Assembly: GCF_907163135.1 (NCBI RefSeq)
Contig: NZ_CAJQUA010000001.1
Location: 139,001 to 203,000, forward strand
DNA length: 64,000 nucleotides
Direction: 5' to 3'
Source of the DNA: Brachymonas denitrificans
GTDB lineage: Bacteria; Pseudomonadota; Gammaproteobacteria; Burkholderiales; Burkholderiaceae_C
Shown: positions 43,667 through 51,996 of the stretch, one piece after another
How positions within the stretch are numbered: the stretch's first letter is position 1
Layout: every line of letters starts with the position of its first letter
Made by a program: the position numbers and the translations under genes
The notes under the pieces: generated by a model
The model's input: only the letters and a program-made list of their open reading frames with translations
Databases searched by the model: none
Told to the model about the DNA's origin: nothing

Positions 43667-44527
43667 ATGACCCCCCGTCAGCAACTCAAGGCCCTGGCCG
43701 AAGCGCGCCGTGGCGTGCTTGTGCCCGGCGCATTCAACGCCCTTTCTGCCAAGGTGATCGAGGATCTGGGCTTCGAGGCCATCTACATCACCGGCGCCGG
43801 CGTGACCAACATGTGGTTTGCCATGCCCGATCAGGGGTTCATGGGCCTGCATGAAATCGCCGACCATACCGCGCGCATTCGCGATGCCGTCAACCTGCCG
43901 TTGATCGTCGATGCCGATACCGGCTTTGGCAATGCGTTGAATGTGTACCACACGGTGCGCACGCTGGAACGGGCCGGTGCCGACTGCATCCAGCTGGAAG
44001 ACCAGGTGGCACCCAAGCGCTGCGGCCATTTTTCCGGCAAGGAGGTGATCTCCACCGAAGAGGCCGTGAGCAAGATCAAGGCCGCTGCCGATGCGCGCCG
44101 CGACAGTGATCTGCTCATCATGGCGCGTACCGATGCGGCGGCCGTGCATGGCTTCGAAGCGGCCGTGGAGCGGGCGCAGCGCTTTGCCGAAGCCGGTGCC
44201 GACATCCTGTTCGTCGAAGCCGTGACCACGGCCGACGAGATCCGCGCGCTGCCGCAGCGCCTGGACAAGCCCCAGCTGATGAACATGGTGATCGGCGGCA
44301 AGACGCCGATCTTCAACGCCACCGAGCTGGGCGAGCTCGGCTATGGCCTGGTGCTGTATGCCAACGCCGCGCTGCAGGGTGCTGTGGCCGGCATGCAGAA
44401 GGCGCTTGTGGTGCTGCGCGACGAGAAGGAAGTGCAGGAGTCCAGCGGCCTGGTGGCGCCGTTTGCCGAGCGTCAGCGCCTGGTGGGCAAGCCGGAATGG
44501 GACGCCCTGGAACAGCGCTACCGCTGA
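43667..44527 (+). CDS. prpB: 2-methylisocitrate lyase
   Basis: 286 residues, isocitrate-lyase superfamily. Splits 2-methylisocitrate to pyruvate and succinate. The catalytic loop PKRCGHFSGKE contains Cys-Gly-His near residue 123; metal ligands are in VDADTGFGNALNV and LEDQVAPK. Overlaps family-wide with carboxyphosphonoenolpyruvate mutases, but KRCGH and the prp context settle it. Last enzyme in the operon. Confidence 0.95.
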   Translation: MTPRQQLKALAEARRGVLVPGAFNALSAKVIEDLGFEAIYITGAGVTNMWFAMPDQGFMGLHEIADHTARIRDAVNLPLIVDADTGFGNALNVYHTVRTLERAGADCIQLEDQVAPKRCGHFSGKEVISTEEAVSKIKAAADARRDSDLLIMARTDAAAVHGFEAAVERAQRFAEAGADILFVEAVTTADEIRALPQRLDKPQLMNMVIGGKTPIFNATELGELGYGLVLYANAALQGAVAGMQKALVVLRDEKEVQESSGLVAPFAERQRLVGKPEWDALEQRYR

Positions 44528-48427: not shown

Positions 48428-50050
48428 TCAGGCCTTCGTCCTGCGCAGTTGCTCCAGCCGTGCAATCACCGCTTCATCCGGTTCGCGCACCGTGGCAATC
48501 AGCCCCGGATAAACCAGCCCGGCGTTGCCGTCCAGCGTGATGGTATCGCCTTCGCGCAGCGCCAGTTCGCCCAGCTGGATGCTGCGGTCGCCGATATCGA
48601 TGCGCAGCGTTTCGCAGCCCACCAGGCACACCTTGCCCAGCTGGCGTGCCACCACCGCCGCGTGCGAGGTGCGCGCACCGTTGCGCGTCAGCAGGCCGAC
48701 GGACTGCTCCAGCGCCCCGATGTCATTGGTCTCCGCATCATTGCGCACCAGAATCACGGGGTGGCCCTTGGCCGCACGCTTGGCTGCGCGTTCCGCATCG
48801 AGCGCGATCTCGCCACTGCTCACCCCCGAGCAGGCGCTGGCTGCCTGCGCCACGGGGCTGGCCGGGGCACCGCAGTCGCTGGCCAGATGGGCGGTGCACA
48901 AGTCGTCCTCCGCCAGCGTATCGGTGCGCTGCAGTGCCGTGGTGCGGTCGATCAGACCCTCTTCATGCAGGTCCAGCGCAATGCGCGCCGCCGCCAGCGG
49001 CGTGCGCTTGCCGGAACGCGCCTGCAGCAGGAACAGCTCGCTGTCCTCCACCGTAAACTCGAAATCCTGCATGTCGCCGAACAGGCGCTCCAGCGTGCGC
49101 GTGGCTTCCGACAGCTCGTTCCAGGCATCCGGTGCCAGATCGGCCAGCGCCTCGTGCCCGTGCGCATTGCGGCGGCCGGACACCACGTCCTCGCCCTGGG
49201 CATTGGCCAGAAAGTCGATCCACAGCGTCGGCTCGCCATTGCTCGGATTGCGCGTGAAACCCACGCCGGCGCCACTGCGCCCCCCTGCGTTGCCGAACAC
49301 CATGCGCTGGATGGTCACGGCCGTGCCCATGGCGCTGTCGATGCCATTGAGCTTGCGGTACTCACGCGCCTTGGCCGAATCCCAGGAGGCAAACACCGCC
49401 AGCACGGCACGCGCGAGCTGCTGGCGCACATCCTGCGGGAACGGGTGGCCGGCATGCTCGGCATACAGGGCCAGATAGGTCTGCGTCAGCTGGCGCAGTT
49501 CGCTGAAATCGAGCAGACGCTCGTCGCGGCCCTGGGTCAGGTCCTGCAACGCATTTTCGAACAGGCTGGCCGGCAGGCCTTCGACCACTTCGCCATAGCT
49601 CGCCACCAGGCGGCGATAGGCATCCCACACCAGTCGCGGGTTGCCGGTCTGGCGCAGCAGGCCGGGCAGCGTGGCATCGCACAGTCCGATGTTGAGCAGG
49701 GTTTCCATCATGCCGGGCATGGAGATGGGCGCACCCGAGCGCACCGACACCACCAGCGGCTTGCGGATATCGCCAAAGCCATAGCCGGAGCTTTGTTCCA
49801 GCGCCGGAATGCCGGTGTCGAACAGCGGGTGGATGCACTGCTTGCGGTGGTGGGCGTAGTGCGTGCCCAGCACCAGTGCGGGCGGTACCGGCAGGCCCGC
49901 CTCGGCCATGCGCAGCAGGTTGTGCGCCTTCGACCCCATGGTTTCGCGGCTGGGCGACAGGCCGTTGCGCACGTAGGCAGCATGCTGCCTGTCGGGATGA
50001 TCGACCAGATACAGGTGGTCGGGCCAGGGGAAGGGGTGGTGGTGGCTCAT
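48428..50050 (-). CDS. Pyruvate-phosphate-dikinase-like protein without the PEP/pyruvate barrel
   Basis: 540 residues from ATG 50050. The N-terminal ATP-grasp region matches pyruvate phosphate dikinase: [36 protein letters not shown] and [13 protein letters not shown] ... [10 protein letters not shown] carry the ATP-site residues. The swivelling domain holds the phosphohistidine, His463, in [16 protein letters not shown]. The protein ends about 77 residues after it, where the dikinase would continue with a 350-residue PEP/pyruvate TIM barrel. So it can probably self-phosphorylate from ATP but must hand the phosphate to something else. It overlaps the upstream PhoU-like gene by ATGA, tying the two together. 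The final reaction is unknown. Confidence 0.85.
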
Positions 50051-51996
50051 GCCGGGACTCCTGTCTTGAGGAAGGCCATCTGGCGCAACGCGTAACCAGT
50101 GGCCACCAGCGCGTCGGAAGCGCCTTCGATGGTGGTGGCGAGTTCGGTGGCCAGCAGCATGGCCGCCGGCTGCGCATGCAGCGTCTGCACGATGTGCTGG
50201 CGGGCCGTGCGCAGCAGATCGTCGCATTGGCGCTCGGCACGCAGCATGCGCCACAGAATCTGCAGGAAGGCATCACTGTCGGTGGTGTCGATGCCGGCAT
50301 CGAGCAGGCGCGCGATCTCGATCGCCTTCACCAGATCCTGGATCGCCACCAGCGTGGTATCGGCCAGCTTGCCCAGCACCTCCATCACCGAGGGCGGCAG
50401 GCCGTTGATGGGTTCGGCCAGCGTCAGCGTATAGACAAAGGTGGATTCTTCCAGCGCATCGGCCACGTTGTCGGCCTGCACCAGCAGATCGACCACGGCG
50501 CGCCAGTGCGGCTGGCGCTCGGCCCGCTGGCGCGCGGTGGTGAGCAGATGGTCGGCGCGGTGCTCCCAGTTCTTGGCGCGCAGCACCACCTGTTCGCAAT
50601 GGCCGTTGCAGCCCTGCGTCAGCACATCGCTCAGCGTCTGCGCCAGCGCATGGCAGAAGGCGGCGTGCTCGGCCAGCAGGTCGAACTCGACATGGCGTTG
50701 CTGCAGCACGCGGCCCAGCAGCAGGCGCGCCTTGTCCTGCACCAGCGTGAGCGGCTGCTGCTGTTGCAGCAGCTCGCTGCAGTTGCGCAGCAGCTCGATC
50801 AGGAAGGCGCGTGCGCCGTTTTCGCCCAGCACGGCATCGAGTCGCTCGCCGATGCGGAAAGTGTCGCTGCCCACGGCTTCCATGGTGTCGTACACCAGGA
50901 ACTCACCACCGGCCAGCAGCCAGCCCATATGGCCCCAGCGGTGCTCCGAGGTGTGCTGCAGGATGGCCACCGCCTGCGCCTTGCTCACGAACAGCTGCAG
51001 GCGCTTGCGCGCACGGTTCCAGTCGATCACGAACACGATGCAAGAAGCGATGTCTTCCAGGCCCTGTTCCAGTGCAGCCTGGTCGGCGGCCTCCAGCGTG
51101 GCGATGCCCACGGTATAGGGCTTGCCCTCGTTCAGGTCGCGCGAGATGACGGGCTCGGACACTTTCCAGACAAAGCCGGCGTTCTCCAGCAGGCCCTGGA
51201 AGAACTTGAAGCGCGGCGGGTGCAGGTCGGAGTAGGTCAGGCGGATGGTCTGGCCTTCCACTTCGATCACCAGCACGTGCGCATCGTTGGTGCCGATGTC
51301 GTTCTGGATCAGCAGGCGCTTGCCATCACGCGTGACGGCGGTGTCCAAGCCGGGGTGGCTGAATTTGAGTGGCGCCGTGCTGTGCAGGCCGCGCATGAAG
51401 GCGCGCACCAGTGCGCGGTCGTCCTTCTGGATGTTCCAGACATGGGCGCCGTCGAGATTCTCGGTGGCGACGCTGCTGGCCAGGGCGTTGATCTGCTTGT
51501 GCAAATCCATCACCAGCAAGTGGAAGCTGTCACCGGCCTTGCGTTCGCCGTGGGTGAGGGAGGTGAGGGCGTCCTGCTCCAGACCTTCTGCATCATTCAA
51601 TGCCTGCAGCACGTGCAGCCAGTGGTCGCGCCGCTGCACGAAGTCGGGGGCGTTTTTCACCATGCCGCCATCGACCACCGGGCGCGCCATCACCTGCAGG
51701 TCGTCGCCCAAGGCCTGCAGCAGTTGCGGCATGTGCGAGAGCACCAGCGTGTTTTCATCGTAATAGGCATGGCGCACCAGATCCTGCGTCCAGCCGGCAT
51801 CGCGCAGGCCGGCGCGGGCCAGTTCCTGGCTCCAGTTGCCAATGCTGTCCTCGGGCTTGCGCGCATGCTGCGCGGCGGCCTGGGTCAGCGAGAGATAGAG
51901 CTTGAGTCGGTCATTGGCCGCCAGGGCGGCGGTGATCCAGGCCGGCATCAGCAGCGTCTGCTGGCCGAGCGAGGCCACGGCTTTGTCTTTGAGCAA
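50047..51996 (-). CDS. Large protein with PhoU/DUF47-like C-terminus, partner of the dikinase-like protein
   Basis: About 650 residues. I chose TTG 51996 because AAGGAC lies 7 bases upstream; ATG 52029 is an alternative without a ribosome site. No membrane segment. The N-terminal 400 residues are not recognised; charged, with motifs such as KFSHPGLDTAVTRDGKRLL. The C-terminal 200 residues are all-helical with PhoU/DUF47-type acidic repeats (VDLLVQADNVADALEESTF, LRAERQCDDLLRTARQHIV), which bind metal or phosphate in related proteins. It is first in a two-gene operon with the dikinase-like gene. A role in phosphate or phosphoryl regulation is inference. Confidence 0.75.
   Translation of the reverse strand: MLKDKAVASLGQQTLLMPAWITAALAANDRLKLYLSLTQAAAQHARKPEDSIGNWSQELARAGLRDAGWTQDLVRHAYYDENTLVLSHMPQLLQALGDDLQVMARPVVDGGMVKNAPDFVQRRDHWLHVLQALNDAEGLEQDALTSLTHGERKAGDSFHLLVMDLHKQINALASSVATENLDGAHVWNIQKDDRALVRAFMRGLHSTAPLKFSHPGLDTAVTRDGKRLLIQNDIGTNDAHVLVIEVEGQTIRLTYSDLHPPRFKFFQGLLENAGFVWKVSEPVISRDLNEGKPYTVGIATLEAADQAALEQGLEDIASCIVFVIDWNRARKRLQLFVSKAQAVAILQHTSEHRWGHMGWLLAGGEFLVYDTMEAVGSDTFRIGERLDAVLGENGARAFLIELLRNCSELLQQQQPLTLVQDKARLLLGRVLQQRHVEFDLLAEHAAFCHALAQTLSDVLTQGCNGHCEQVVLRAKNWEHRADHLLTTARQRAERQPHWRAVVDLLVQADNVADALEESTFVYTLTLAEPINGLPPSVMEVLGKLADTTLVAIQDLVKAIEIARLLDAGIDTTDSDAFLQILWRMLRAERQCDDLLRTARQHIVQTLHAQPAAMLLATELATTIEGASDALVATGYALRQMAFLKTGVPA

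Follow-up and report, generated by a model that had tools for sequence, protein, structure and literature searches.

What receives the phosphate of a pyruvate phosphate dikinase (PPDK) that stops short of its own acceptor? The question is raised by two overlapping genes in a 64,000-nucleotide stretch of Brachymonas denitrificans DNA (hereafter the window; NCBI RefSeq assembly GCF_907163135.1, contig NZ_CAJQUA010000001.1, positions 139,001 to 203,000 of the forward strand), of which one, P0001, encodes a PPDK half without the phosphoenolpyruvate (PEP)/pyruvate barrel and the other, P0002, a partner with a PhoU/DUF47-like C-terminus. The acceptor part at the end of a dikinase is normally a known one, whilst here an intact donor is tied to a conserved family whose main part is unnamed in Pfam and NCBIfam. 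We give a probability of roughly 0.5 to the reading in which the two proteins together make up a split dikinase, P0002 being its acceptor side, that serves acetyl-phosphate/polyhydroxybutyrate (PHB) metabolism. The features of the locus, in window coordinates, are:

48428 to 50050, minus strand: P0001, barrel-free PPDK half of 540 amino acids (aa), with an ATP-grasp domain (PPDK_N) and a PEP-utilizers phosphohistidine domain, from Pfam/NCBIfam and alignment to 1kbl
48662 to 48664, minus strand: codon of His463, the predicted phosphorylation site (TSHAAVVA), located by counting from the P0001 start at 50050; the histidine is identical in all aligned pair members (34/34)
50047 to 50050, minus strand: ATGA overlap of the P0001 start and the P0002 stop, from the sequence (the plus strand reads tcat)
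50047 to 51996, minus strand: P0002, the partner, 649 aa from TTG 51996 or 660 aa from ATG 52029
50056 to 50694, minus strand: PhoU/DUF47 domain of P0002, residues about 446-658, with E/DxxxD motifs, from Pfam, fold and conservation
50710 to 51996, minus strand: N-terminal part of P0002, residues 12-440, with no notable family match by Pfam/NCBIfam, structure comparison and conservation

An original prediction, made by a model from the letters alone, had given the coordinates, stop codons and ATGA overlap of the two genes, and these were borne out on the sequence. The TTG start of P0002 matches the M-L-K-E-K start position of several relatives, the in-frame ATG being the alternative.

The same prediction held that P0001 keeps the PPDK ATP site and His463 and stops some 77 residues later, before the barrel, and both the profile search it had proposed and structural alignment agree. 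Searched against Pfam at E values up to 1, P0001 matched PPDK_N (3.9e-34) and PEP-utilizers (8.4e-18) only, and the C-terminal barrel (PEP-utilizers_C) was absent. The protein aligns to chain residues 10-512 of the PPDK structure 1kbl (E 2.7e-108), covers positions 12-508 of the 865-position NCBIfam PPDK model and ends 77 residues past His463. The 1kbl residue aligned to this histidine is number 454 of the chain, or His455 should Met1 be missing there, and we take it to be His455 in PPDK numbering; Arg104, Asp329, Glu331, Gln343 and Arg345 align to PPDK Arg92, Asp321, Glu323, Gln335 and Arg337, to which we assume ATP- and inorganic phosphate (Pi)-site roles. All six P0001 residues are identical in 34/34 aligned pair members, and the C-terminus lies 73-97 residues past the histidine in 33 of them and 200 in L031. 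The 34-row alignments leave out L023, L030, L051-L053 and L056 (a short form of L091). The L031 protein (L031:7929-9905) has about 127 extra C-terminal residues, which are apparently polar, of low complexity and not barrel-like.

The partner had been described as a protein of about 650 residues with a PhoU/DUF47-like C-terminus and an N-terminus that could not be placed, and both halves of this description stand. Pfam places PhoU_div (DUF47, PF01865) at residues 449-649 (E 6e-7; 29.5 against a gathering score of 24.4), and 24 of 29 family members are matched at E up to 0.1, in alignments that additionally leave out L025, L049 and the far relatives L091-L094, except via L056. An AlphaFold model of the whole protein has a predicted local distance difference test score (pLDDT) of 86.5 and a predicted template modelling score (pTM) of 0.62, and its residues about 446-658 match the PhoU/DUF47 structures 3l39 (Z 23.7, root-mean-square deviation (rmsd) 2.6, 205 aligned) and 2olt (Z 21.1), the best Foldseek E for such structures being 3.8e-3. 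Neither Pfam nor NCBIfam matched the N-terminal part at E values up to 1; across the 29 relatives Pfam found, beyond PhoU_div, nothing more than isolated weak hits, limited to one or two members (best E 0.008), and among PDB sequences P0002 has no significant relative (best E 1.4 and 0.22). Modelled alone (residues 14-440, 427 residues; pLDDT 90.2, pTM 0.77), this part matched best the MotA C-terminal domain over residues about 199-334 (Z 8.8, rmsd 3.3, 106 aligned), which is near the level reached by models without clear relatives; a YbjN family member matched the same residues weakly (Z 4.3).

Conservation across 34 sequences is concentrated in this N-terminal part, with 65 invariant positions in the first 440 (28 polar or charged) against 15 in the last 220 (11 polar). 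Residues H170, H177, H225, H251, H270 and H367 are invariant in 34/34 sequences, as are Q242, N243, D244, D249, D336, W337, N338, R341 and K342. The E/DxxxD motifs of PhoU proteins are metal-type motifs, and the PhoU part of P0002 has four (E489/D493, D520/D524, E599/D603 and E635/D639), with E489/D493, D524, E527, E599/D603, R607 and E635/D639 kept in 34/34 and D520 replaced by E in 3/34. Neither P0001 nor P0002 matched PADLOC at E up to 0.1, and a defence-system identity was rejected.

The survey of relatives that the prediction had called for found the genes joined wherever the contig permitted a check. A five-row P0002 alignment was used to search the GTDB species genomes; the search, which relied on two peptide patterns and misses remote relatives, gave 34 P0002 loci, all in Betaproteobacteria by their titles. 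P0001 comes next after P0002 on the same strand in 32 of them (truncated by the contig end in L023 and L030, and with P0002 in two frames in L053), and the remaining two contigs (L051, L052) end inside P0002. Of 399 genomes from the window's family, 32 have P0002, and these are exactly the ones that have P0001 (at 55% identity or more), adjacent to it; in 23 further genomes the sole PPDK relatives are more distant ones of 46% identity or less, in frames of at least 855 aa in 19 cases and of smaller size in the other four. Beyond the family the pair is seldom found, with P0002 in 2/274 class genomes and 4/398 phylum genomes (the window's own included in each). The far copies in G305, G721, G881 and G1008 are also pairs with a barrel-free P0001 (identity 33-36% for P0002 and 43-51% for P0001), and a plasmid of Methylocella tundrae (Alphaproteobacteria) bears the pair, annotated as a DUF47 family protein and a PEP/pyruvate-binding protein. 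Since the same two genes stand together in different genera, families and classes, the pairing is real and not a matter of chance. In one M. tundrae record (L103) the pair is split into several small frames and in another it is whole, and assembly errors are likely.

The prediction had itself raised the possibility that the missing barrel exists as a separate co-occurring gene. In 36 pair genomes no orphan barrel gene (PEP-utilizers_C) was found co-travelling with the pair. Every one of these genomes has at least two PEP-utilizers_C genes, and frames of at least 540 aa account for 79 of the 80 matches, on which ground a separate co-travelling barrel was rejected. The sole short-frame match, 286 aa in G596, stands beside a 367-aa frame matched by P0001, and we read the two as one broken or misassembled PPDK. 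The window's genome has PEP-utilizers_C in just two genes, with frames of 801 and 600 aa, both far from the pair; the former also carries PPDK_N and the latter a phosphohistidine-like match, and they are taken for PEP synthase and enzyme I of the phosphotransferase system (PTS). Such genes are not special to the pair, because 14 of 14 control genomes have them too. About 4 kb from the pair, the window protein at 43667-44527 resembles, we presume, the isocitrate lyase/PEP mutase family, whose barrel we take to be related in fold to the part that P0001 is missing.

The genes found repeatedly around the pair encode acetate kinase (AckA), a MaoC/phosphate acetyltransferase (MaoC/PTA), a FabI-like reductase and PHB synthase (PhaC), the labels coming from BLAST to genes with known Pfam domains and, for the FabI-like reductase, from reading of the sequence alone. 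At a distance of 10 kb or less from the pair, acetate kinase is found in 9/36 genomes (7 genera; expected 0.18), PhaC in 7/36 (5 genera; expected 0.44), and one or the other in 14/36 genomes and 10/20 genera. The expected counts are Poisson and treat genomes as independent, which fails, and the genus counts are therefore the safer figure; loci L021-L054 overlap the G genomes (L032, for example, overlaps G367), so that the neighbourhood counts of the two sets are not independent. Neighbourhood stretches were viewed from 12 of the 14 genomes with acetate kinase or PhaC nearby. Same-strand runs read AckA-FabI-P0002-P0001-MaoC/PTA (L104), P0002-P0001-FabI-MaoC/PTA-AckA (L107), P0002-P0001-PhaC-FabI-MaoC/PTA (L113, MaoC/PTA incompletely called) and Xfp-AckA-P0002-P0001 (L115); in several other stretches part of the acetate/PHB set is on the opposite strand. 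No neighbour gene was common to all loci, a crude clustering giving at most seven loci per family, with some clusters being antisense frames.

Upstream of the pair, FNR-like sites with at most one mismatch occur in 9/34 regions, against 13/246 other called genes, 1.9% of random windows from the same loci and 0.8% of shuffles, and exact sites in 4/34 regions, against 1/246 other called genes and 0.5% of random windows. Two of the 34 regions are shorter than 410 bases, L051-L053, L092 and L093 are excluded, and the control genes, which come from a crude caller based on GC content at third codon positions (GC3), may include divergent genes sharing the pair's upstream region. These figures suggest that in some of the species FNR-type oxygen control of the pair is probable. 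A low-oxygen locus of Burkholderia cenocepacia, lxa, carries phosphate acetyl/butyryl transferase and acetoacetyl-CoA reductase genes (PMC6127331); this locus is not the P0002-P0001 pair.

How new is such a system? The first 510 or so residues and the active site of P0001 are those of PPDK (TIGR01828, EC 2.7.9.1), but the PEP/pyruvate barrel of that enzyme is absent, and its score of 493.3 bits falls short of the model's cut-off, 843.45. Phenylphosphate synthase and other split dikinases, derived from PEP synthase, carry donor and acceptor parts on separate proteins and use an acceptor other than pyruvate; P0002 differs from these in having no PEP-utilizers domain by Pfam. With PhoU/PhoU_div proteins (3l39, 2olt) P0002 shares the fold of its C-terminal part and the E/DxxxD motifs, whilst differing in that this part is fused behind an N-terminal part of about 440 residues of no known family and is paired with a dikinase half. 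The open PMC literature held no paper joining DUF47 with pyruvate phosphate dikinase or dikinase, and none joining PhoU with pyruvate phosphate dikinase and phosphohistidine. The nearest parallel to the donor is VadK (Mycobacterium Rv1127c), for which PMC13400623 reports a barrel-free PPDK that autophosphorylates on His422, with the donor step shown in vitro, that interacts with methylcitrate-cycle enzymes, that has an operonic partner, Rv1126c, and that is found in mycobacteria, other actinobacteria and Burkholderia ambifaria. Of the prediction's new phosphotransfer system, the putative barrel-free donor and its constant partner are borne out; the donor half is already known in kind, because VadK is a published barrel-free, self-phosphorylating PPDK.

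VadK and the NCBIfam model PRK05878 (NF004531, a short 'pyruvate, phosphate dikinase') share with P0001 the ATP-grasp and phosphohistidine PPDK domains without barrel, and VadK likewise has an operonic partner. They differ in sequence: P0001 scores 425.7 against PRK05878, under the cut-off of 456, and other pair members score 455.7, 419.8 and 401.3, whilst the short PPDKs L095 (663.9) and L097 (699.1), the two scored, pass. In a 42-row tree the 34 pair members group together (100/99), apart from three short PPDKs (L095, L096 and L097, with no mycobacterial VadK among them) and five full-length ones; the tree is midpoint-rooted and includes one long pair row and four full-length rows of odd composition. 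In BLAST, P0002 bore no likeness to two proteins encoded upstream in L095, an operon of the PRK05878 type, and the partners in these two operons look unrelated. The PRK05878-passing short PPDKs L095:3424-8133 and L097:3236-8033 lie in four-gene runs with a second PEP-utilizers phosphohistidine protein and a protein of about 200 aa just upstream, possibly a two-histidine split dikinase.

A dikinase half with a travelling partner, often near acetate and storage-polymer genes, is therefore probably a little-known phosphate-relay device. As a split dikinase, it would work as follows. In the manner of the first PPDK half-reaction, which consumes ATP and Pi and yields AMP and pyrophosphate (PPi), P0001 would transfer a phosphate from ATP to His463, and its swivelling histidine domain would hand the phosphate on, in the presumed direction of transfer, to P0002, whose conserved N-terminal domain would occupy the place of PPDK's PEP/pyruvate barrel in a putative complex. 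P0002 would be either phosphorylated itself or holding a small-molecule acceptor, and its PhoU-type C-terminus, with metal-type motifs kept, would probably gate or tether the complex. Judging by the neighbours and upstream sites, the pair may serve acetyl-CoA/acetyl-phosphate/PHB metabolism, partly under probable FNR-type oxygen control. A more specific version, which we put forward only tentatively and hold rather doubtful, makes the P0002 N-terminal domain an acceptor module new to the dikinase superfamily, in place of the PEP/pyruvate barrel, with the pair coupling ATP/AMP+PPi to acetyl phosphate or another PTA-AckA-PHB metabolite, possibly in the ATP-forming direction at low oxygen. Were P0002 indeed the acceptor, it would be a new end-point for a classic enzyme superfamily, and the pair a tractable two-gene system for asking the role of barrel-free PPDKs such as VadK.

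Several observations weigh against this reading. The 10 kb on either side of the pair contain no acetate kinase or PHB synthase gene in 22/36 genomes, the window's own included (short contigs hide some), and in the window's genome the PhaC-MaoC/PTA-AckA run is about 116 kb from the pair, outside the window (L116:9146-13847; G000:C1:67145-71846). Within the region tested there is no FNR-like box upstream of the window's own pair (best 3 mismatches), nor in the L094 upstream region. The P0002 N-terminal fold is without a confident structural match, and its conserved histidines may instead be structural or metal-binding. Phosphate-related genes also neighbour the pair in a few loci: L044 has a CHAD/CYTH gene and L035 a CHAD relative, and in Methylocella (L102) a member of the alkaline phosphatase family is encoded 2 kb beyond the pair.

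These last neighbours bear on the phosphate-sensing role put forward in the original prediction, by which the PhoU-like domain of P0002 would read Pi or polyphosphate and P0001 would set the output. CHAD is linked to polyphosphate and the PPDK half-reaction uses Pi, and both join the PhoU fold and the E/DxxxD motifs in pointing to a sensor. On the other side, no Pst, Pit or phoBR was among the 20 flanking proteins scanned or in the annotated stretches, the ordinary DUF47 gene of the window's genome adjoins a Pit-like transporter (read from sequence) away from the pair (L100; G000:C1:948739-949371), and the recurrent neighbours are acetate/PHB genes; a sensing role finds little support beyond the fold, and we regard it as quite unlikely. 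The chief rival, unlikely in our view, is a VadK-like regulatory kinase, in which phosphorylated P0001 would act on metabolic enzymes (MaoC/PTA, AckA, FabI or PhaC, for example) with P0002 a mere adaptor or sensor. The self-phosphorylation and enzyme contacts given for VadK in PMC13400623 argue for it, as does the finding that the recurrent neighbours are enzymes of one pathway, whereas the separate clade of the pair's P0001, its score below the PRK05878 cut-off, the presence of P0002 beside it in every checkable genome and the many invariant polar residues of P0002 argue otherwise.

Two further explanations take the missing barrel as their starting point. P0001 might use the barrel of another protein in trans (PEP synthase or PTS enzyme I), either making PEP or taking phosphate from it; a barrel donor is always present, because each pair genome has at least two PEP-utilizers_C genes, but the control genomes have them as well, those of the window's genome are far from the pair, and P0002 is left unexplained, which makes this very improbable. 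That P0001 is a decaying PPDK remnant has the missing barrel, and nothing else, to recommend it: the catalytic residues are invariant, the protein ends at much the same distance past the histidine in all aligned members except L031, and the pair is spread over classes. We consider decay refuted for practical purposes, and P0001 is the full-length gene that the prediction had taken it to be.

Other neighbours of the pair vary. YceI adjoins it in Brachymonas, and in Methylocella tundrae (L102:2630-8959) genes for thiolase, 3-hydroxyacyl-CoA dehydrogenase, acyl-CoA dehydrogenase and enoyl-CoA hydratase precede it on the same strand. In a Cupriavidus metagenome-assembled genome (L046:1211-5855) a starch-synthase-like gene and an 857-aa frame lie just upstream of the pair.

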